Source: Polytrichum commune
Lineage: Eukaryota; Streptophyta; Polytrichopsida; Polytrichales; Polytrichaceae
NCBI GenBank assembly: GCA_950295325.1
Contig: OX485804.1
Span: forward strand, 49,848,001 to 49,912,000
Direction: 5' to 3'
Length of the DNA: 64,000 bases
Numbering within the stretch: position 1 is the stretch's first letter; each line of letters begins with the position of its first letter. The translations under genes were made by a program, and so were the position numbers. The notes beneath the pieces are model-generated. The model saw only the letters and a list, made by a program, of their open reading frames with translations. It was not told the origin of the DNA and did not search any database. Shown here piece by piece: positions 9,398 through 64,000 of this stretch.

Positions 9398-9461
9398 GCG
9401 GTGAATTTATACATTGTACTGTATTCTGAGGTGTGCATAAACTTTTAGTTAGGATTTGCTG

Positions 9462-12400
9462 ATGGCTCCTCCAGTGGACGGGAACCTTCAGGAGTGTCTA
9501 TATGATACTCTGGGAGTGGAGCGCACTGTGAGTCCGGACGCACTGAAAATTGCCTACCGGAAGCAGGCAATGAAATGGCATCCTGACAAAATTCAACAAA
9601 GTGGAGCATCTGCGGATGCATATCAAGCAGCCACGGTGCGGTTTCAGCAAATAAACCGTGCGTATGAAGTGCTATCGGATCCTATAGAACGAGCATGGTA
9701 CGATTCACATCGATCAGCCATACTTTCGGCCTCCTCGTCGTCTTCAAATGCTGCCCCTGGTGAATTTGACTTGAATTTATGGCCATACTTCTCACCATCT
9801 GCCTTCTCAGGATATGGTGAAACTGGCAATGGTTTCTACTCGGTATTCTCTGAGTTGTTTAAAAAAATACATGTCCAGGAGCAAATGTTTGCTCGAATGT
9901 ATGGGGGTGGGGATGTCAGGGATGCACCTGATCTCGGAGGTAGAGACACACCTTATGTGCAAGTATCTGCATTTTATAAATACTGGCAGGGGTTTAGCAC
10001 TGTGAAGGATTTTGGATGGTGTGATGAGTATGATGTGTTAGAAGCCCCCAACAGAAAGGTGCGAAGACTCATGGAGGAGGAGAATAAGAAGATTAGGAAG
10101 AAGGAGCGCCGTGAGTTCAATGACTCTGTTCGACAACTGTCATCTTTTGTGAAGAAGCGTGATAAGCGGGTGATCGAGAAACAACTTGAACTTCAAAAGT
10201 TACAGAAAGAGAAGGATCATGCTCGGAAGCTCCGTCAGCTACAACTGGAGAAAGAAAAGCAAGAGCAGGTTCTGTCTGTTGCTTGCATGCCTCTTTCCTA
10301 TTCTTTTTTCCTGTACTTGATTGATTCTCTAGCTGGTGAGTTCTGTACAGGTATGGCACACATGGTTATTCAAGAATTTGTGCTGGCTATTGCTATGTGT
10401 GAATCTGAATTTGTTGGAATCTGGCAATGTTGGACCGGTGTATAGGTGAATGCATGGCATTCAAGAACCTACCCAACTCGTATCAAATTGTAATAGCAGT
10501 TAGATATTGATACATTATGGGTTCCAAGTTAAGAGAGTCTTTGTACATTGACGTCATTATTTGGGTCAATACCATCCTAATATCATATTAATACTAGGGC
10601 AATACTACCTAGGTATGAAGGTTTTTGGATGGTATTTAGACCTGAATGGTACTGAAAAACAAAATTATCCTCGAATACCCATACCCTACGTGTATTAGAA
10701 AAGCATAAAATCCTTATTACATATACCTGAGTGGTTTTGGAAAAAGGTGATATCAGATAGCACTGGACTGTGGGCAGGGTATTTGTATGATGTCTTTGTA
10801 GCTTTACACCTACTCATAACTTTTAAACCATCAAATGGTACTTTATATTACACAACAGTTTGCTGTGTGCAGACATGAACTTACAAAAGCACATAAACAC
10901 GTCTGCATGTGAGCTGCATGTTAGTATTGGCTGTATGCCAAGTTATCTGTGTCCTGACTATGAAGAGCTTTCTAAATGTGGCGCCTTTCTATAGTCATTC
11001 CAACTCTCTTCAGGAGCTGTCAGTAAATGTGTCTCTATTTATAGGGTTCTCTTGGTGGTGACAGAGAATTGATTTAAAAATGCGCTGAGTACTGAATCTG
11101 GTCCTTCGTGCATGGTTGTGACAGATTCGACTATACAAGGAACAAGCTTGGACTGTCCCAGCGGATGAGGAGGAAGATGAAAGTGACGAGACTGATACTA
11201 GCTCTGGAGAAGACGATTGGCATAAACGAAATAGGAAAACTCTTCCAAAACCAGATATCAATGTAGATGACCTTCAATGTGTTATCTGCAGGAAGCGTTT
11301 TAAGTCAGCAAAGCAATGGCAGAATCATGAACAGTCAAAAAAACACTTGGAGAATATTGCTGCATTAAAAGGAGCATTCCGTAATGATGACAAACAAGTA
11401 GAGATGTTAGGAAAGCATTTGGGGATCGACTTTTCAAGTGAGTTTGCTAAAGAGAAAAAATTGAGTGCGGAAAGGAATGACCAGGGCCTCAGGCAAGGAG
11501 TCGCTGGTTTGGAACAGGTCAGTGTCTTGATGATGAAATACTTTTGGTTCCTGTTCAGTCAGTAGCGATATTTTTCTGGTAGAGACCTCACCTCTAGAGC
11601 TGTGTAAGTCCATGCCATTCATGCTTATGACTGATCAAGCTAAGTTCAATTATATTTAGAATGACTTCAGTTATTACGTTTTGATTGCTTCCATGAGTGC
11701 ATGCAGGCTGCTGAGCTGAACGACAATGTGCAACAAGGTGGTACTGACGATACTTTAGACTTGTCAAGGAGCAGTGAAGATGAGTCGAGTGTGTTCCATG
11801 GAGTTGCAGTTGATGAAAACCATTTACAAAGATCTGATGAGCAAAGCAATGACAGTGATGGAAGTGGGGCTGATGCCAGCCTCGATAGGCAAGATAAGTC
11901 CACTGTGGACAGGACAGGGACCACAACTGAGGCTGCAACCTCGGACGTGGATGATGATGAACTTGAGGAAGATGATGAGGAGAGCATGCTTGCTGCGATG
12001 TTAATTTCTCAAAGAAATGTTCAGACATCAGGGGCAATGGAAAAGACTGCTGATGTTGAAGGGGTTGTTGAAAACAATTATGGGGACAAGGACTTAGATT
12101 ATAGCAGTGAAGGTGAAGAGGTTGACGAGGATAGCATGCTGGCAAGCATGTCAAGTCTTCACTTAAGGTGGGGAGAGGCTTCTTCATCATTCATGAATTC
12201 TGACAGTAAAAAAATTGACGTCATGGTCAAAGACTCCTCAACGGAAACCGAAGGGCCTTGTGAAATGCAGGAAGGATTGTCTGATGAGGATAATGGGAGA
12301 TCAAAGAAGGCTAAATCCAAGAGGAGAGCAAAGCAGGAAAAGAAGCAGGTAGCTGCATCAAATCGGCATGTGGCTTCTGCAGCGGAGCTGAAACAAAATG

Positions 12401-32856: not shown

Positions 32857-41982
<9,126 letters not shown>

Positions 41983-51700: not shown

Positions 51701-52103
51701 ATGTTTGTTGTTGCCATATATAGAACCTTAGAAGATCAATAATCCAAAGGTGTGTAAGTTGATGTTTTATAGCTATTGTACCTGAAAATCATTGGTGATA
51801 AATTGGTGGTAAATGAGTTAGTTAGAAGGTGATCAAAGTGGGTACATTGGTCTGACTTCGATGTATTATACTTGGCAGGCACTGTGTTTGATGTACTCTC
51901 GGGAGCTTTTGGCAGCAACATCAGTACTGGAGGACAACTTGCAGTCCAGTCCTCGGTCGATACTGAATGAGACTATGGTCCTCAACTTGTGCAGCATGTA
52001 TGAACTAGCATCCATGAATAGCGTGGAATCAAAAAGAACTCTTAGCTCATGGCTCCTGAATCATGCTGCTGATGACTTTGACCCTTCCTGTACACGCTTG
52101 TAG
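48747..52103 (+). CDS. TRAPPC12: TRAPPC12-like TRAPP complex subunit (TPR protein)
   Basis: TRAPPC12 belongs to the TRAPPIII-type tethering complex that acts as a Rab exchange factor in ER-Golgi traffic and autophagy. Six exons: 48747-49289, 49986-50211, 50361-50476, 50926-51269, 51386-51641 and 51879-52103, giving 569 residues, phases consistent. An in-frame TGA precedes the ATG. Residues 1-181 are low-complexity, rich in Ser and Pro. The conserved part opens with RQGAWRTLIDKVKAAKKRG (182-200), typical of the family, then YHLLALMKLRNYGAAVDEL, MVPFALRWMRAELP and TPR-like helices around LTWRKRREEVVYALVGHHL, VGYVQLQLGDLLGAQQTF and NRGLLHFAEKEYAKAF. It ends with ALCLMYSRELLAATSVLED and NLCSMYELAS. 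It is shorter than human TRAPPC12 (about 735). An acidic insert (about 305-350) separates the first conserved block from the TPRs. Confidence 0.9.
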
Positions 52104-52974
52104 ACACCTTTCGTCGATGTCTCTTCGACCTCAGAAAAGAAGGTGCTTACTATTGTATTGTCCATAGACTGCCAATTCATGTTGTAGGAAATTCATAGGA
52201 AAAGCTTTTCATTGTGGCTCGCCTGCTCTTGAGCCTGGACCTCCACCTAAAGCAATTAACTGCTGCTAATTGGTTCTCATATGCATCCCTGTATTGGGAG
52301 GTGAGCTTTTACATTGTCAAGCAAAGGATCTAGGAGCTTTGATGTTGTATATTCAGAAGGTGTTTTGGTCAAAGATTCTTCTTGTATTCAGGATGAAAAT
52401 CTCAACAAAGGTTATATTTGAAACAATGTACTACAGTATACTGTGTAGATTGTATTTCTGTCATTCTATCAGAAGAGCTGCTCTGTCAGCTATGTTACTG
52501 CCCAGGGATAATGCAAGCAACATGTTTTGTGTGATTAGACCAAACAAAATTTATTTGACATGCTTTGAAAAGAAGAATGATGATTAGCGAACACCTCAAA
52601 GATCCATACAAGTTCTCAGATTTGTTGAATTCAGAATATCTGAATTTATAGATGAATGTGGATTTTCATTGAAAGACAACACTAAACAACCAAACACCAG
52701 AGAACCACTTCCAGGCTTTGACAGGTGAGAGGTGGAAACAACAAACACATAACACCCTAACGCACACATTCTTAGTGCTAGGATTATCTCTATGCCAAGC
52801 CAAAAGAGCACCCATGTCATGACCATGCAAAACACACCATGCTCCACCTCAAATTGTTCCGAAAACCAATCATTCCTACTAGGGTTTTCCTATATATTCT
52901 GCTCAGTATTTAGCCAGATGTACTTCAATACTTGTTGCCAAACAATGATCTCAGCCTTACTCAGGCCATGTATC
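52104..52974. other. 3' flank of TRAPPC12
   Basis: The first few hundred bases are probably the 3' untranslated region of TRAPPC12. No second gene was recognised. Confidence 0.45.
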
Positions 52975-53480
52975 CTATTTGGCAATCTTGTCCTTGTGGC
53001 TATTCCAGATAACCACATAGTAACGCTCAGGAGTAAGTGTTCTGTTCAGGATTGCCTTCTTGACGCATTGGATAAAATAAATGTGCCCAAAGTGGACACT
53101 TCCAGCATTCCAACAAATGTAGGGTTTGACAATCCAAGAAATCTTACATGAACACATTAGCAAATCCAAACGAGGATTATGAGAGTTGATCTTGTTATGT
53201 TTGGAATGAAAGTGAGTATCTTATGAATTCTTGAAGTGGTGCTCATATATGTACATTTCATACTTGAATATGTACTTATAGACTAGAAACCATTTAAGAT
53301 CACATACCACTTTAGGGCCACATACTTTAAGTGGCCAACTAATAAAAAATATTTTGCACTGAAGATTGCTCAGTGTGACAATTTGGACATGCCCAATAAG
53401 GCAATTTGATAGGGGTTCTATGGTTCACATGCTTTGCTAGAATATGATTATGAAGATGTTTGTATCAAAAACGGATCACA
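52975..53480 (-). pseudogene. Decayed LINE 3' end (reverse-transcriptase zinc-binding region)
   Basis: In broken minus-strand frames, ILAKHVNHRTPIKL is followed by CPNCHTEQSSVQNIFY. This fits the CxxC...H zinc-binding pattern that follows reverse transcriptase in plant LINEs. About 250 bases further on, ERYYVVIWNSHKDKIAKQ resembles the WxIWxxRNxxxF segment that comes next. Stops and frameshifts interrupt the region, and no reverse transcriptase core was seen. The family call rests on motif shape only. Confidence 0.4.
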
Positions 53481-53689
53481 AAAGCCACCTCTGCACTTCT
53501 AAAAGAGTTGATGTGCAAAAGAGAACCAAACACACGAGCATGAACCACTAGGTATTGGGAAGTGTTGTGTGCTATGTAAGGAACCTCCTCACGAGTATGG
53601 AATGATTGTTGTGCTATATTTGTCCCATTCTTCAAGATTGCTGAATTAAAGGAAATGCATACATTGTGAGCAGGGCCAAAATCTAGTGC

Positions 53690-53935
53690 AAACCCACCCC
53701 TTTGGAACTATATATCATGCAAGAACCTTCATACCTAGGCAAAATTGCCTTGGTATCAACATGGTTTGGAATGTATTGACCAAAATAGAAACTTAGTATA
53801 CAAAGATTCTCTCACCTTGAGATACCCACCACATACCAATATTTGACTGGTATTAGAACTTCAGACCCACAGGTATATTCCATACCAATACTGATGTTGA
53901 TTGTTAATACCATGCATTCACCTATACACCAGACC
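53690..53935 (-). repeat. Dispersed repeat family C, copy 3
   Basis: The reverse complement begins GTATAGGTGAATGCATGG and contains TTTTGGTCAATAC and GCCTAGGTATGAAGGTTCTT, matching the copy in DNAJC21 intron 1. Confidence 0.7.
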
Positions 53936-54530
53936 AAGACAAAAGAAATTGTCAGTTTTGAAGGCATGCATTTTCAAGCCATTGTACAAGAGCAGGAGCA
54001 ACATCTGGACCAATAATGAACATGACTAGAAAGTGCAAACAAGAATTAATAACCAGTAGGCTACCGTCGACTCATAACTGGTTAATGAAGAAAATCCAGC
54101 AAGTGATAAGTAGTGCTTACCAGCTGCAAGGCTGTCAAGCATGTATGGAGATTGACAAAAGGAAATTATTGTAGCAGTGTCAGTGTGAGGGCAGTTCTCA
54201 TATATCAAATCAAATATCTGAAAGTGAGCCTAGCAGGAAAAACATTATAAACAACAAATATTGTAGTAATCCTTGGCCAGCCAACTTATACATGGTACCA
54301 TAAGGATCTACAATATGATATGTTTCTACCCGTTTGTATAATTTTCACAGATTGATAACATTGCTAATCTCCTAGGCGCACAACACTGAGTAAACCAAGA
54401 CCTCATTCAGCCCACTTCAAGTTGCAAAAAGCACCTTGTAGTGTCAACATACGAGGCCTTGTATAAAAGCACACTAACACCACAGGAAGTTCTGATTGGA
54501 ATGTAAGCCTGATTGAACAAGTAGTACTTG

Positions 54531-57376
54531 CTATTCGAAGTCCTTGCCCAACCACGCATCACCCTCACGACTGATAAGTGGATAGTCCGTTGGTTTAATT
54601 TTGCAGGGTTTCAAACCGCTATCCACATTCCCAGATGATTGGTTCATCAAAACTTGGTCGTCCATGTTTGCAGATGGTCCTGCCAAAGCTTCAGATGATG
54701 TGCTGTTCTGAGCATGATCAAAGCTTGCATATCCCAAGTTCCTTTCTTGCAGATGCACAGGCATTTCGTGATGAGCATCACTGAGAATATCCTGCACTGA
54801 TACTTCATTGCATAAGGTGAACATAATATATCCTATCCCAACAATTCGCACAAACTGTTCAAGCAACACCCAGTCCTTGTCATCGATTTGTTTCAAAATT
54901 AGTGCTTTTGCTGCAGAGATGTTGTCTTCTTGAGGTGCAGATGTGGAATGATGACCATAACCTTGGTAATCATGCTCAAAGGAAAATCCTTCAGTGCAAT
55001 ACCTGGACAAAATGATGTTCATGAAATCCCCTTTTGGACAAATTTTCATAAACTCTCCTAGCAACACCCAATCCTTGTCAGCCAGTTGTTCCATCACGGT
55101 CAAGTGGGGCATCATCTCCTTTATACGTTTCCGAGCATTCATACAAAATTGAGCATGCTTTTCATCCTTGGACTTGCCCTTTCCACAGATGGGCTGCAAG
55201 CGCAGCTGCTTGTAAATTGGAACAAGTGCAGTATCTGGACAACACTCAAACTTCTTGAAGATAATAGGGGACATCGGATAGTGGTACTTGTCCTTCTCAC
55301 TTCGAGGCAGGAAAGACAGTTTCAAAAACAAACTGAAGTCCCTTGCAAAATTAGCTTCCGCCTCGTCTGGATATGATCCCAAGTGGTATTTCACGTGGTT
55401 GTGACGTGCCTCCACTTGAATTCTACAGAGCAGAGAGAATATCATTCGTTAGAATTGGTGCAAGTCTTTTACTATACAAAAAGGGGAAAAAGGGGAAAAA
55501 AGCAAGCCAATTCATGACAAAAGTGAAGTAATCCCCGGCTACATGTCTCAAGTGCAAACTTGTGATTGCAGGAAAGCATAAGAGAAGAGCCTTGAAGAAG
55601 GCTGCTCTCTTATATACGTGTGCAGACAACAACCTTCCATTTCTCAAGCATCTATGTGTGGCAGTGAAGGGGCGTTTACACACAACTACCTTGTGTGGTT
55701 GTGGTTGTGATTCAGACCCACTTTAACCACAACTAGACATTTTTTCATATACACACAAGGTGTAGTTGTAGTTGAAGAGTAAATTTGACCCAAATTATCA
55801 TTCCTGATCCTATCGATGCATTCCGTGGAGCAAAGAAAACCAAATTATGGATTCTAGTGGAGTGTTTTGTCTAAGAGGACATGCCACAATGAAACCTCCC
55901 CCATGCTTTGGCCTTGAAGTTCTCTCCCCGTATCACAAAGTACCTACAAACAAAATAGCACCAAAGAAAGTAAACTAAAACCATCCCAACCACTCCCAAC
56001 ACCTTGTATTGTAGTAGGCACTTTAAGAGTAGTTATGGTGTGGTTGTCATAAATGCACCTTATTTCTCAAAAACGGAGCCAAAGAAAGTAAAGTGCAACC
56101 ACCAAACGCCTCTCAAGTCTACTTGTTCAGGCATGTAGCTATTAAGATAACTAACCTGCTTGGCATGAGAGTCATTTCCCCTACTCGCTACAAACAACTA
56201 TCCACATGTAGGTTCAAGTTCAGCTACAAATAGTGCTTCCTCCCTGTGGTAAATCAGACGTTTAGATAAACCAGCGACCGATAGGTGATTGTTTCATTCT
56301 CCACTTCGAAAGCCCCATCTTACATTGGGTGCTTGCTATATAAAAATTTGCTTCATGCCCTTCGAGGTTGCAATTTGAGGTTTCAAATTTGATATTGTGA
56401 AAACCAGAATTTCAGCCTCCACACAGCAGCAAAATCACACTAATTACACATCCGTCCACCACCTCTCGAGCAGTGCCAAGGACTGATAATCGATACACAA
56501 AATCCCCAGACTCTAAGCCTTCAATTGACAGAATTGAAATTCACTTCTTCTTCTCCACATTGGGTGCTTGTTATATAAATATTGCTCCATGACCGTAGAG
56601 GCTGCAATTTGATTTCAAATTTGACACCTGCAAATCACATTTCAGCATCGACACAGCAGCCAAATAGCAGTAATCACACATCCCATCCACCGAGACTCGA
56701 GCCGTGAGCGAGAAACAACAACCGATACACAAAATCCCAAAACGAAATCACACATCCCATCCACCAAAACACGAGCAGTCGGCAAGGACTGACAATCGAT
56801 ACATAAAACCCTCAAACTCTAAGACTTCAATTGGCAGAGTTGAGATTCTCCTTGTTCTTCTTCACATTGGATGCTTGCTATATGAAAATTGCTCCATAAC
56901 CTTCGAGACTGCAATTTGATTTCAAATTTTACACTGTGGAAATCAAATTTCAGCCTCAACACAGCAGCCATATAGCACTGATCACACATCCCATCCATCC
57001 GAGACCCGAGCCGTGAGCGAGACACAACAATCGATACACAAAAACCCAAAATCCCAATCACACATCCCATCCACCGAGACTCGAGCAGTGGGCGGGGAAC
57101 AACAGTCAATACACACAAAACCCCAAACCCTAACCCTGCAATTGGCAAAGTTAAGATTCACCTCTTCCTTTTCCTCTTCCACTTGTTTGTGTTCTTGTTC
57201 GACTCCTCATCCTCCCGCTGCAGAGGAGGAGCAGCAGGAACATCATCCTCCACCAGCTCCCTCCCCGCCTTCCTCCTCACATTCTCTTCCTCTTCCTCCT
57301 CCCGTTCCCACTGCTGAGGAGGAGCAGCAGAAGCAGGAACATCCGCCATGCCCTGCTTCCCTGGCCTCCTCGTCAT
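54531..57376 (-). CDS. Unrecognised protein with AP2/ERF-like core and a duplicated DKDWVLL unit
   Basis: The family was not recognised. Two minus-strand exons, 57376-57162 and 55422-54531, give 368 residues. The ATG sits in the context GCCACCATGA, the donor is AG|GTGAAT, and phase 2 closes exactly at the acceptor. Residues 1-60 are charged and low-complexity with an acidic run, then KWKRKRKR (about 65-72) looks like a nuclear signal. IQVEARHNHVKYHLGSY (73-89) followed by DEAEANFARDFSLFLKL resembles the strand-strand-helix part of an AP2 domain (AEIR, KRVWLGTF, EEAARAYDRAA), but the usual YRGVR start is missing. Two units of about 33 residues, near 179-211 and 244-276, share DKDWVLLxxF and similar flanks. 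The tail is polar and acidic. A nuclear DNA-associated role is only inferred. The intron holds a MITE and a tandem repeat. Confidence 0.65.
55669..56070. mobile_element. MITE family D, copy 2, in the orphan gene intron
   Basis: Its left end (GGCGTTTACACACAAC followed by TGTGGTTGTGGTTGTG) and right end (GGTTGTCATAAATGCACC) are degenerate inverted repeats of the same type as 48019-48487. Internal segments such as CTTTGGCCTTGAAGTTCTCT match that copy. Confidence 0.65.
56321..57160 (-). repeat. Tandem array of ~310-base units that include the exon 1 splice junction
   Basis: Similar blocks recur at about 57137, 56825 and 56518, with a partial fourth near 56321. Each holds a CAATTGGCA(A/G)AGTT-like segment next to a GATTCAC-like donor, a CACATTGG(G/A)TGCTTG block, GCAATTTGATTTCAAATTT and CACACATCCCATCC. 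Inside each unit a shorter segment of about 70-77 bases (from CACACATCCCATCC to GATACACAAAA) is itself repeated twice. The junction used by the gene is the rightmost copy. Confidence 0.75.
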
Positions 57377-59440
57377 GGTGGCTACGGCTGCTAGCTGCTC
57401 CCTCAAATTCCACACCGTCCCATGTTAAAGAAGAATGTTCGACGGCGGCGGTGTCCTTATAGTACCACCATGGCCATTCAGGCCATCCCTCAGGGAGGCC
57501 GGCGTCGGCAAACAGAATCGGCATCCTGGCTGCTGTCTGCAACGGTGTTGGACGGCGCAGGCGTGGCTCCGGATCCTCCTCCCCGACTGACTCCACTAAC
57601 TGACAATGATGAATTCCTGCTCCTCATCCCTTGCATTCTCTTCTCGCCTTGTCGTTGCTGCTGACTTTGCTCTTACGCCTCCTCCACCTCCCCATTTGAC
57701 CCAATCCTTCCTCCCTCTCCTCCTCTTTTTGGCTCCTTCCTGCTCTCCTGTTTTGCGCCGTCCGGCCTCCTCCTCGGTCTCCTCCTCCCTCGGCAACTCC
57801 GCCTGCCAGCACCAGACGCAAAGTGGCCAAGTGCTACGTGGATGAAGGGGAAAGTGTAAACCTTAAAGGGCGCGGGGTCTCAAGCTTAGATAGACTACGG
57901 CCATAAATGCGCAATTCACGGGCTTCACCAAGTTCACAATTCATATCTTCATATATTATGTGTTTCAAACCTTGTCACATACATTGTTTTATTTCAAGGA
58001 GAAGATAAACACAACATGGGATTTGGAGGTGGTTCACATGGGATCCCAAGTCCCAACGTGGAGGCAAAGTCCCAACTGTTGAGCCTCAAGAAACCATTAT
58101 AATATGGCTAATCATCATCAAAGTCGTATCTCGATTATTTTTATGCGAAATTATTCACGGGACTTATGCTCAGAGTTGGGTTTAGCTTATTTCTTGACCC
58201 AACTTTCAACACAAATCGCAAGCCTCACCTCCAAAAAGTGTTGCCATGTCATACTGGGACTTAGGATTTGGGACCCTGTGCGAACCGGCCCTAAATACGC
58301 TAGATATTATGTTTTGTGTCATATAGTGTTTTATGCCATTGTGGTAATTTTTCTAATGACATATCTTGTGAATGAGTTTTTGGAGGTTAGAAGCCCTTAG
58401 TGTAAACACGAATTCCTACTGCACACTTTGCCATGCCCATTGCCTACCTTCAAGACTTGGACCAAAAAAATCCCCTACAATCCCGGTTTGGACATGTGGA
58501 TTTTTCATCCCTGGAAAATGTTATGGGTTGCAGCCCAAAACCACTCACATGTAAATCCAAAGCGAGAGCTTGTGACACTCTCAACCAAAGAGAATTCAAA
58601 GACTCTCAAGAGCCAAGGTCTAACAACTTTCATTTAAACATGCCCTTAGAGCATCTCCACTCATAGAGCCTCAAATGAGTCATTACAATATTTTTTTTGC
58701 TCTTTAATAGCAAGATTGCATGATACATTTGTCACAGTATGCGGCGTCGGCGGCCGCACCTTATCCGTTGGGTTTCATCCATTTAGGTTTGGATGAATGA
58801 ATCTTAGATGTGGAGAGGAAGGCTCCTAAGTGAGGAGCCTCCTCCTTGGCTTGGCATTCTTGCCAAGTCAAGTCTTGTGAGTGAGTGTGTGGAGAGAGTT
58901 TGTATGAGGTGAAGATTGCATGTTTTTGCAATAAATCTTGAGTTCTTCTCCCCTTTCTTACACTCTTGGATTCTTCCGTGGTGAAAATAGAGATAGCTTG
59001 ACTCATTGTGTGCATTTGAAGAGAGAAGTAGAGCTCTTGCAAGGGTTTGACTCTCTTCCTTCTCACTTGGCAAGAATGCTTCATTTTTTATGTTTTCTTA
59101 TTCATTCTTAAAATAAAACACGCAAGGGAGGACGTGAGGACAAGGAGTGACGAAGCGGAGGACACCGCGGATTTGCGGAACAATAAGATGAAGAATGCTC
59201 GCTTGTGAACGCCACATCAAGGTGAATTTTGATGATGAATTATTGAATTGTCCACGGAATTTCGTGTCAATTGACCGCTTGCAAGCTTGAATCACGTCAT
59301 TGAGCCGTGAAGAATCATTCTTGATTCCAATTTAGTGAGAAAATCATTTTTTTTAATTTAAAAAATTTAGGGGAAAGGCGGAGGAGCCGAAGCTCATGGC
59401 CGGCCCCTCTGCTGTGCCTCGGGTTCGGCGGCGGCTCGGC
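57377..59440. other. Gene-free stretch upstream of the orphan gene
   Basis: The first 450 bases are GC-rich and purine-rich on the minus strand and probably hold the orphan gene promoter and leader. At 58649 a GAGCATCTCCAC motif preceded by TTA looks like one end of a Harbinger-type element, with no partner found. Between 58823 and 59082 there are short inverted motifs, including GGCTCCTaagtgAGGAGCC and TGGCATTCTTGCCAAGT with its complement about 210 bases away. Confidence 0.5.
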
Positions 59441-59535
59441 GGTGGGCCTCCCCCCCCTTCTTCCTCCTCCTCCTCCCCCTTCCTTCCCCCTTCCTACCTC
59501 CCACTCCCCTCCTTCCTCCCACCTTCCCCTCCTTA
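59441..59535 (+). repeat. Polypyrimidine tract
   Basis: Roughly 95 bases almost entirely of C and T (CCTCCCC, TTCCTCC, CCCTTCC units), followed by a CTAGCC/CTAGCT-rich stretch to about 59595. The reverse strand encodes only a glycine/arginine low-complexity frame. Confidence 0.85.
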
Positions 59536-59851
59536 CCCCAGCTAGCCTAACCCAGCTAGCCCCCACCCCCAACTAGCCTAGCTAGCCCCCCTAGGTCCAC
59601 CTCCTAGATCCCCACTTTAGGTCCCTAGGTCAACCCTCCCGTAGTCATATGCTTCATTAAGCCATGCACGTGTAAGGGCCACTTTATACTTGGGGCCGGA
59701 TTGAGGGCCGGCCGGAACTCTCAAAATTTGGGCCAATAGGATCGCTTGATTTCATCAAATCGGGCCCAAGGGCTCTATACTTGGGGCCGGTCCGAACACT
59801 CACTTATCCCATGTGGCGTCCTAGGTGGCACAATTTTGGCGCCAAACCATT

Positions 59852-59911
59852 GGGCCCTAGATGAGAGTTCGGGACGAGCTTTTCCTCGTCCCGAACTCCC
59901 ATCTAGGGCCC
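59852..59911. repeat. 27-bp near-perfect hairpin
   Basis: Left arm 59852-59878 and right arm 59885-59911 pair at 26 of 27 positions around a six-base loop CTTTTC. The arms begin GGGCCCTAGATG and end GTTCGGGACGAG. The arms are GC-rich against an AT-rich surrounding. Confidence 0.9.
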
Positions 59912-60000
59912 GATTGGGCTCCTCCGTTAGATTGAGCTCATCTTGTCCATCAATCACTACCGGGGTAAATTATTTTCCTCTCCTCTTCACTCCACTCTTC

Positions 60001-60711
60001 TAATAACACAACAATTAGCATAAATATGATTGCATTAGACTAATAAGGCAACAATTAGGGCGTTAATCACACATTTAAGATAAAAATGAAACATTCAAGC
60101 ATTTAATCAAGCATGTAGTATGGCTTAGGCTATAAGTTAGTCTAATAACGCATCAATTAGCTAAAATATGATAGCATTAGGCTAATAATACAACAATTAG
60201 GGTGCTAATCACACACTTAAGATAAAAATGAAACATTGAAGCATTTAATCAAACACATGGTATGGCTTAGGCTATGGGTTGGTCTAATAAGGCAATAATT
60301 AATATAAGTATGTTACCAATAGGGTAATAACACAACAATTAAGATGCTAATCATACACTTAAGATAAAAATAAAACATTTTAAGTTGTTAATCAAGAATT
60401 TGGCGTGCATTATTCAATGGGTTAGTCCACTAACATGATAATTAGCACAAATATGGTAGCATTAGGCTAATAACACAACAATTAGGGTGCTAATCATACA
60501 CTTAAGATAGTAATGAAACATTTAAGCATTTAATCAAGCATATGGTATGGCTTAGGCTATGGATTATTCTAATAAGATAAAAATTAGTGTAAATATGATA
60601 GCATTAGGCTAATAACACAACAATTAAGGTGCTAATTATGCACTTAAGACAAAAATGAAACATTTAAGTTGTTAATCAAGAATATGGTGTGCTTTCTAAA
60701 CCACACCCATT
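60001..60711 (+). repeat. Five-copy ~142-base tandem array
   Basis: Units start at about 60001, 60143, 60285, 60429 and 60570. Each opens TAATAA or a variant and holds GCATTAGGCTAATAA, CAACAATTAGGGTGCTAAT, CACTTAAGATAAAAATGAAA and ATTTAATCAAG. Copies 3 and 5 share AAGTTGTTAATCAAGAAT; copies 1, 2 and 4 have AAGCATTTAATCAA and TATGGCTTAGGCTAT instead. Confidence 0.9.
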
Positions 60712-62007
60712 GGTCAATCCATTGAACATGGTAGATAAATTTATAAGAGCATTTTGACGCCGGAATAGATTCAAAGGCCCCAATTTAGTCTAGTGGGACC
60801 CAATTTCGATTCGCTAACCACAACCCTATAGATGTCATCCCTCATAGTAGTGAAACTTAATTGTCGAGAACACCAGGCATTGACCACGGTAAGTTCCATG
60901 AATCTTAACCCTCAAGACCATCGGGCCCCAGAATCGGGCCTCACCACTTTACATGTGACAAGGTTGGGTCGGAAAAAAGTTCATAAAGTGGGGCCGGATT
61001 GAGGCCTCAATTGGGCCGGTGCTCCGGCCGGCCCCAGGCCGTGTTTAAAGTGTACAAAAAATCCCATGCCCTTGGAAAAGTGTGCAAGATTTGTCAATGT
61101 TTGCATGCTTTTTGGTGCCCATATTGGTCTTTCGGACCGCTCCTCCATAACTTTCTCCATCCACCTCCTTGTTAGCTACAACACAACATGGTTTCTTGCT
61201 TTTCAATATTCATGGGTCATATAATTTGTGTCATTGTTGTTTTATTTTTTGTTTTACATGTCTAAGGATTGTGGATAATTTCTTCTATTTCATGTAAAAG
61301 AACATTACATAACAATAAAAGACTCAAGAGCACTACACTAAATATTGCATTTAGTGTCACCATTTCTATTCGTCTTTCTCAATGCTAATTGTAAATCATC
61401 CATGTAATGCCACGAACACTAAATATAAACCCAACATTATTTGCCATCCCTTGTAAAAAGAAATTGAGCATTATTGATTCACATTGTTATAAAAACTGTC
61501 ACTTATTAAGTGATTTTCATCCAAACTTCAATCATCCATGACTATATTTCATTACAGATAAAATACAAGGATGCAAACTATACGAATCGTTGTTTCAAAA
61601 CATTGGCGTGTAGATGAACTAAAAGTAAGCTGGGAAGACAATATTTGTATACTTAATCATGAGAAGTGCCACTTGAAAAGGTTACCACAGTGATATAATG
61701 TACCACTTGTTTTCTAATCAAAGTGGAATTAACATGGGTCCTAAGACTTGGGTCAACCCCGAAAAGCCTCTGCCCACCTGACACTACGAGGAGGTTATTA
61801 GTGCCCAAAAACAACATTAGTTTAACATGCATGCTTATCCATACGCATCTGCAGCAAAAATAACACTATGGCGACTCCAGGCCCAGCTTGAAACGTTGGT
61901 GTCGCTCCGCCACATGCATGCAACACTGGCATCAAGTCAGGTACATCTCACAAGAACTCGTTGATTTGTTGCATTTTCCAGAATAGTCATTTTGCTGTCT
62001 GAATCTA

Positions 62008-62229
62008 TGATCGGGGAGAACCGACAGTTAGTTACAGATGAACCGGTCGAGTTTGAGAAATAAGCGGTTGAAGTTCAAGACTGCAGGAAAATTACCGATC
62101 AAATTAGAGGAATTTATAGAATATACCCCAATTTAATAAAGGAAAACCAGAGGATGTCAACATGTAACCGGTTGGACTTGCAAACACTAGGATCTCAACC
62201 GATTATGCCCAAAAATCTCTCCGATCACT
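62008..62229 (-). repeat. Dispersed repeat family P, copy 4
   Basis: The reverse complement reads GAGATTTTTGGGCATAATCG, CTAGTGTTTGCAAGTCCAAC, TTAAATTGGGGTATATTC and CTCGACCGGTTCATCTGTAA, in the same order as the PILS intron copies and closest to copy 1. It lies inside the long inverted-end element. Confidence 0.78.
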
Positions 62230-62878
62230 GGTCTGAATCCTAGCTAGGCTTCATAGCAATTCAAGCTACGTTTGGGCACTGAGTCTCACAGGTCTGACAT
62301 CAGGAAGGTCGTGAAAATCTGTCTAGTTGAAAAAACATTTTTTGCAGACTATAAAACCAGTATGATGAAGCACCCTGATTGAGGTTGATTGAGGCCATCG
62401 AAAGTTCCCACTTGACATCGATGAAGAACATCACACCGTAGGTGGAAACCCCCTCTGCTGTAAATGCTGTGTGATGGCAAACAACAAGGTCGTAAGGCAG
62501 ATGCACCAACACAGTTGACCTGACTTTAATAAACTTACATTGCTCAGTCGAGCCTGGTTGATTCCTCAGTTCATTCAATCTCTGCCCACCTGGTTAACCG
62601 GTCATTGTCTCAAACTTGCTGAATTTGTCTTCTGAAGTAAATCACTAGATAGCTTCTTGTAAGTTCAATCTATTCAACCCTTACATGAGGGCAAAGATGC
62701 TTGAGTGACAGGAACTCTTCAGCAGCATGTACACATCCAAATTCAGGTAAAATGCTTTGGTGTAATCTTGCCTGACTACGAACGATAGCCGGGTAGGGCC
62801 AATTTCAGGTCGTTTTCCTACCGAATGTAGCCAGAGCCCACGTCTAGTGCGGATTGCATCCACCTCTGCAACTTCAAA

Positions 62879-62914
62879 CAGGAATATCAGGAATATCAGG
62901 AATATCAGGAATAA
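62879..62914 (+). repeat. 10-base tandem repeat (GGAATATCA-type)
   Basis: Nearly four units of AGGAATATCA in non-coding sequence within the 61.3-63.9 kb element. Confidence 0.85.
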
Positions 62915-64000
62915 GGCTTAGAATGAGGCCACTTTTGATCCTCATTCCCCACACAATGTGTTGTACTTGATGAAAGGCTTGGTTAGTGACTAAACATTGT
63001 ATCAAAGAGGAAAAATGTTCCCGTTGCTGACCTTGCATCCAGTCATTAGATCGTACTATGATCGTTGATGCGAGCTCTCTTGTTGCAGACTTGGATTCTT
63101 TACAATTTGAGAAGATTGTGTAATCTACTAAAGGGTGCTCAATCTTATATTTGATCTATTTACCGTCTATGACTCAAAACATTTGCCTGCCTGCTCTCTA
63201 TGTTATCCAATGTCAACAGTTTCTGTCTATTTTATGAATCGGTGGAGTGTGGTTTTGTAAGCAGCCACAAGGCGCGGTACTACTTGCCTTACTTTTAGGG
63301 GAAAATTGCAATTGTTTGTATGACTGGCTTTGTTGTAGAGTGCTATTTGTGTGGATAACTGATCGGTATTATTAGTGAAAGACTGGTCTGGTGTCTTTTG
63401 CTTTTATCTGTCTGAATTCCCTTGTTTCTGATCATCTGTCGACACCACTACTCTGCCACTCAAGTGACGTATATCCTTGGGTAAGTGGAAGTGTTTTTCT
63501 ACCATATAGCTAGCACTGATAATACCAGAATAAAGCAACTGTTTACCAATTCATAGGTAGTGGTGTACGCAAACACAAGTTCTTCATGATATCTAGTCTT
63601 CTTACAAGGCCTATGACGGATGTTGATAAAACTCTCTAGTCTTCTGATGAGAATTGCACTTTCTAAATTCCCCTTACCTAACATGTCCGTAATAAAATAT
63701 TGTCATGGAGGATTGAAATTAGGATGAAAATTCACAGTAATTGCAACATTGTAAATACACAATGCCCAAAACATTCTATAAAGATAGATTTTACAAAGAC
63801 AAATAATTCTGTCTTTACATTTAGTGTCTTTGCACCTGTGACATTACACAGGTGGTTTGCAATCGGTATTCAGCAAGTCAAATAGAATTGGTGACACTAA
63901 ATACAATATTTAGTGTGATATTACACACAACAGTCACTACATTGGACTTCGCACAATGGCCTAGTGAATGTGGCCTCTCCGTCCTCTGTCCGGAAAGGGC

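Follow-up and report, generated by a model that had tools for sequence, protein, structure and literature searches.

A locus on the minus strand of the Polytrichum commune genome, within a stretch of 64,000 nt that we call the window and to which all positions below refer, raises two questions: whether it holds a real protein-coding gene, and from what kind of protein such a gene may have descended. As regards the first, a continuous reading frame is formed by two exons of that strand, 57376-57162 and 55422-54531, and encodes a 368-residue protein followed by a stop codon. The initial annotation had proposed this same in-phase splice, and both the joined translation and the good splice sites bore it out; the two-exon gene is probably real. 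Its parts are the following.

57162 to 57376, minus strand: exon 1, 215 nt (71 codons plus 2 nt), in phase with exon 2 and with its best coding score in its own frame
55423 to 57161, minus strand: intron, 1739 nt, carrying a degenerate tandem array with a spacing of about 307 nt, the first copy of which overlaps the end of exon 1
54531 to 55422, minus strand: exon 2, 892 nt, made up of the one base that completes the Arg72 codon, another 296 codons and the stop

The splice donor reads GAG/GTGAAT and the acceptor CTGCTCTGTAG/AATTC (slashes mark the exon boundaries), and a branch-point-like CTAAC word lies approximately 30 nt upstream of the acceptor (TCTCTGCTCTGTAG). Ranked by plant consensus weights, the donor came fourth among the 164 GT sites and the acceptor fourth among the 166 AG sites between 57700 and 55300. 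The intron contains 27, 22 and 31 stop codons in its three frames. An extra exon considered at 56243-56156 was discarded because of stops in all three frames. The interval 58300-57377 contained no TATA-like word, and in 54530-53901 the one word resembling a poly(A) signal was AATAAT at 54170, 361 nt past the stop codon; neither observation is decisive.

Codon scores, trained on eight other open reading frames of the window (1356 codons), favour both frames as read, with a strong signal in exon 1 and a mild one in exon 2. The in-frame score of exon 1 was 0.56, the 99th percentile of 215-nt windows being 0.32; that of exon 2 was -0.02, above the 90th but below the 95th percentile of 891-nt windows, and its own frame was the best of those available to it. 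The exon 2 frame runs for 305 codons without a stop, and just one stop-free frame of the window is longer. Twelve third-order Markov copies of the window had longest frames of 148 to 237 codons, short of 305 in every case.

To the second question, a part of exon 2 offers a putative answer, in the form of a segment that resembles the AP2 domain of plant transcription factors of the ERF type.

55323 to 55422, minus strand: AP2-like beta2-beta3-alpha segment, residues 72-105, with the first strand missing, delimited by profile tests, hhalign and AlphaFold

We compared the protein with four AP2 profiles. The first was built from eight plant AP2 domains; with it, residues 51-140 scored 6.1 bits, a value reached by 1 of 5000 shuffles, and the whole protein scored 3.3 bits (11 of 5000). 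A profile of five domains from solved plant structures gave 4.2 bits for the protein (12 of 5000 shuffles as high), and one of nine HNH-AP2 domains from phages gave 8.8 bits (3 of 5000). For the phage domains, 10 records were taken among the 30 listed of 178, and one of these (L011) was left out of the profiles because its match was short; WRI1 repeat 1 was used in the profiles and left out of the alignment (A1) used for the column comparison below. The combined profile of five plant and nine phage domains gave 11.3 bits over residues 66-98, higher than all 5000 shuffles (maximum 9.3), a value to be read as the best of four profiles tried on an AP2 idea taken from the initial annotation; the reversed protein scored -0.3 bits. 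With exon 2 alone, the combined profile gave 6.8 bits (2 of 5000 shuffles), and the plant and phage profiles were equalled by 17 and 15 of 5000 shuffles, respectively. Each of the plant, phage and combined profiles ranked the exon 2 frame first of the 275 six-frame open reading frames of at least 60 residues.

A scan of exon 2 against the 38,880 PHROGs families, which carried no prior in favour of AP2, returned three weak hits, the third being phrog_99 (HNH endonuclease) at E 0.38, with family positions 227-253 aligned to exon-2 residues 3-29. By interpolation from phage proteins, these positions fall within the AP2 part of the family. When four phage proteins matching phrog_99 were scanned, Pfam HNH_3 followed by AP2 was seen in all four, the AP2 match being above the cut-off in one and below it in three (E 1.7e-7, 1e-5 and 1.8e-5). 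A hand-made ERF pattern, written after the match had been seen, was absent from 200,000 shuffles. A sequence search of the PDB gave a weak sole match to a cytidylyltransferase (E 0.048), which was set aside.

The predicted structure agrees with this picture at modest confidence. Modelled alone by AlphaFold, residues 72-135 formed a strand at positions 2-7, a second strand at 10-15 and a helix at 21-37, an order that would correspond to AP2 strands 2 and 3 and the helix; block pLDDT was 60-73 over the first 40 residues, 63 over the ten that follow and 43-46 in the terminal part. The model of the whole of exon 2 was poor (mean pLDDT 36), and its Foldseek hits were dismissed as meaningless. Taken together, the profiles, the predicted strands and helix and the translation uphold, weakly, the initial claim of an AP2/ERF-like strand-helix segment that lacks the YRGVR start. 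The reading that we tentatively favour is that the locus is a genuine gene, which arose from one of AP2 type and lost the exon for the first strand, and that its product is probably a nuclear protein acting through protein contacts.

The principal rival to this reading holds that the AP2 likeness is coincidental, and that the protein belongs to a family restricted to its lineage, which has a beta-hairpin-helix start of its own and binds proteins through its duplicated unit. We regard this as rather unlikely, and several results are nevertheless on its side. In Pfam and NCBIfam no model fits the 368-residue protein, and Pfam AP2 (PF00847) was not listed for it at E up to 10. With the combined alignment, hhalign gave the protein a score of 25.7 and a probability of 21%, and none of 300 shuffles went above 22.9; exon 2 alone reached 21.9 (8%), and two shuffles of the complete protein scored higher than that. 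Alignments to nine single AP2 domains scored 23-35, values matched by 26 to 812 of 1000 shuffles and mostly not significant, and seven of the nine landed on the segment of residues 72-105 in the expected register. Foldseek, run against the PDB with the model of residues 72-135, found no AP2 chain among four weak hits at E 10 or less, so the AP2 fold is putative only. The exon 2 frame came 12th when the 2869 six-frame pieces of 15 or more residues were ranked by the first profile. Against coincidence stand the shuffle counts of the combined profile and of its two halves, and the prior-free PHROGs hit, which fell on the same residues as the AP2 match. On the whole, the AP2 similarity appears weak and was above chance in most tests.

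If the segment does descend from an AP2 domain, its residues should show which features have been kept. The strand 3 and helix signature LGxF...A..AxD of AP2/ERF proteins occurs as LGSYPDEAEANFARD at residues 86-100. Of the four invariant AP2 columns of the alignment, G27 and A35 are kept and G3 and V4 are lost; among the three nearly invariant ones, A38 is kept and I17 and G48 are not, all columns being placed by the register of the profile match. A published list of residues conserved in over half of ERFs has 17 positions from 16 onward (PMC9748296). Placed by hand, with a loop two residues shorter, 7 of these 17 are kept here: E16, R18, L28, G29, A37, A40 and D42, as E76, R78, L86, G87, A95, A98 and D100. 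Set against the same list, the protein lacks the first strand and has W27 replaced by H85 and G50 by S108.

Among the closest known families is the Soloist group (At4g13040/APD1), whose AP2-like domain is likewise single and short; this protein and a reported Soloist also have HLG where other members have WLG (PMC5543283). The other mark reported for Soloists, an MRG first strand (PMC5543283), is lacking here, as is a Pfam AP2 match, and the protein has two exons as read here compared with the 6 to 9 introns reported for sugarcane Soloists (PMC7531145). Soloists are tabled with a short AP2 domain in a further report, in which partial AP2 domains represent incomplete transcript contigs (PMC3644242). 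RAV proteins carry a B3 domain after AP2, and Pfam found no B3 model here. The HNH-AP2 homing endonucleases (phrog_99) share the weak likeness to their AP2 part noted above, but carry an HNH domain, for which Pfam found no model in this protein.

Relatives of the protein were found neither in viral contigs nor in prokaryote genome contigs, where 14 pattern matches yielded no confirmed case. One viral contig (L001) was hit by a DNA pattern for DKDWVLL, the core of the repeated unit described below; it was rejected, as its frame shares only DKDWVLL, and an AP2 family search in the record behind it was empty. A narrow literature search returned nothing on grass-specific or truncated AP2 proteins, which says little about plant databases. 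We expect that relatives exist.

The AP2 fold packs a sheet of three strands against a helix, and the first of these strands carries YRGV. In the protein the YRG element is absent, and the AP2 similarity starts near the exon boundary (R72), as would be expected if an upstream exon had been lost or replaced. Ahead of this boundary, exon 1 encodes a simple-sequence N-terminus rich in Glu and Lys, which closes with the basic patch KWKRKRKR (residues 65-72); the final R of the patch is the codon split across the exon junction. The last codons of exon 1 lie inside the tandem array of about 307-nt repeats that runs into the intron, which points to local duplication at this end of the gene. The array, at 56322-57170, is degenerate, contains sub-repeats of 74-75 nt, occupies the first part of the intron and includes the splice donor; it was delineated by a direct-repeat search, and three of its copies were compared by eye. 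An overlapping frame of 93 codons in another phase lies at 57243-57524 on the minus strand. Opening with MPILFADAGLPEGW / MPILFADAGLPEGWPEWPWWYYKDTAAVEH, it starts at an ATG at 57524, 148 nt upstream of the start codon as read (57376), and extends beyond that codon. The 126-codon open frame around it gave no Pfam match, and it could be an upstream open reading frame or an alternative first exon.

These features bear on a second alternative, that the gene model is incomplete: another first exon or the upstream frame would then begin the protein, possibly with a full AP2 domain, and exon 1 would be a 5′ leader or an alternative exon. Consistent with this are the overlapping 93-codon frame, the end of exon 1 being part of a repeat that extends into the intron, and the three GT sites that outscore the donor as read. 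A search for the missing strand argues the other way. A loose first-strand pattern gave 2 hits in 60500-55424 on the minus strand (26 in six frames of the window). One of the two, LRGVWW from 56116, looks like a first strand but failed: from none of the four GT sites in the 75 nt that follow can it be spliced to exon 2 in frame and free of stops. The interval 60500-55424 of this strand thus yielded no AP2 first strand that could serve the gene. Moreover, exon 1 lifts the AP2 score from 6.8 to 11.3 bits, though W66 may give much of the gain. An incomplete model seems unlikely to us, and we return to the gene as read, with its AP2-like segment placed directly after the basic exon.

Downstream of that segment, exon 2 encodes two copies of a unit centred on DKDWVLL.

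55020 to 55097, minus strand: DKDWVLL unit 1, residues 181-206, found by self-comparison against 300 shuffles (repeat D6)
54822 to 54899, minus strand: DKDWVLL unit 2, residues 247-272, found by self-comparison against 300 shuffles (repeat D6)

The two units align without gaps at an offset of 66 residues with a score of 66, which none of the 300 shuffles reached (best 47). The duplication and the 66-residue distance proposed initially are thereby confirmed; the alignable core, at 26 residues, is somewhat shorter than the proposed length of about 33. Of these 26 residues 12 are identical, and 3 of the 12 corresponding codons differ silently. Within the seven-residue DKDWVLL core itself, two codons differ silently and no residue is replaced. 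The DNA-level counterpart of the pair is the repeat D6, of 74 nt at 72%. Silent changes in the cores without replacements suggest that this is an old duplication retained at the protein level. AlphaFold tentatively placed helices at the DKDWVLL units, at a block pLDDT of about 29-41. The unit is unnamed by the Pfam, NCBIfam and PHROGs libraries and by the literature search, in which no paper with DKDWVLL was found, a result that says little about plant databases. A suspected likeness of unit 1 to the helix that follows RAV AP2 domains was dropped, as alignments to single AP2 domains did not bear it out.

The pattern of changes in the cores also bears on whether the locus is a decaying gene fragment, left open by chance or by a recent loss. 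Such a fragment could account for the truncated domain and for the failure to detect a full family member in Pfam or in the viral and prokaryote contigs. However, the DKDWVLL cores differ silently and not by replacement, and the stop-free run of exon 2 is longer than the longest frame in all 12 Markov copies, so we consider decay very improbable.

Under the favoured reading, a real gene that lost its AP2 first strand, we infer the following course for the predicted protein. Exon 2 would descend from a gene with an AP2/ERF domain, of which strands 2 and 3 and the helix were kept. The first strand with its YRG element, expected in an upstream exon, would be gone, a low-complexity basic first exon having taken its place. 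Lacking that strand, and carrying His85 in place of the strand-3 tryptophan, the protein is not expected to read the GCC box in the manner of ERFs. The basic patch (residues 65-72) would probably serve nuclear import or unspecific contact with nucleic acids. The two DKDWVLL units and the acidic tail (residues 291-368, pI 4.6) probably mediate protein contacts, through which the protein may co-regulate transcription factors or compete with them. It may be a lineage-specific regulator, as the initial annotation had suggested. A bolder form of the same idea, which we consider distinctly unlikely, is that an AP2 domain lost its first strand at the exon boundary, gained the DKDWVLL duplicate and became a module for protein contacts by which intact AP2/ERF factors are antagonised or tuned. 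If true, a major plant DNA-binding domain would have lost its recognition strand and been kept for another use, with the addition of a repeated unit named by no library searched. This would be useful for annotation and for understanding the evolution of transcription-factor families, and would not amount to a new kind of system.

The other suggestion made initially, a domesticated transposon protein, found no support and is scarcely credible: AP2 domains are present also in mobile HNH endonucleases of phages, but Pfam found neither an HNH nor a transposase model in the protein, and the inverted repeats on both sides of the gene are only short and distant. Inverted-repeat pairs in 52000-64000 number 51; of the 25 longest, four span the gene (I11, I16, I17 and I18), with arms of 18-21 nt lying over 7 kb apart; a domesticated gene need not keep terminal inverted repeats.

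Elsewhere in the window, long imperfect inverted repeats (79 nt at 81% and 46 nt at 87%) bound a 2.6-kb stretch at 61335-63916, starting near CACTAAATATTG, that looks like a non-autonomous DNA transposon. A tandem array with a 142-nt unit (4.9 copies, 80% matches) lies at 59999-60692, and a hairpin with 30-nt arms, 93% complementary, around a 6-nt loop lies at 59849-59914. On the minus strand, an open frame at 32857-33645 encodes a polyglutamine tract over a CTG/CAG-like array at 33430-33519. Two ordinary neighbours were recognized by Pfam, a DnaJ/zuotin-type gene at 9453-10445 on the plus strand and an exon of an XRN 5′-3′ exonuclease at 40600-40998 on the minus strand.
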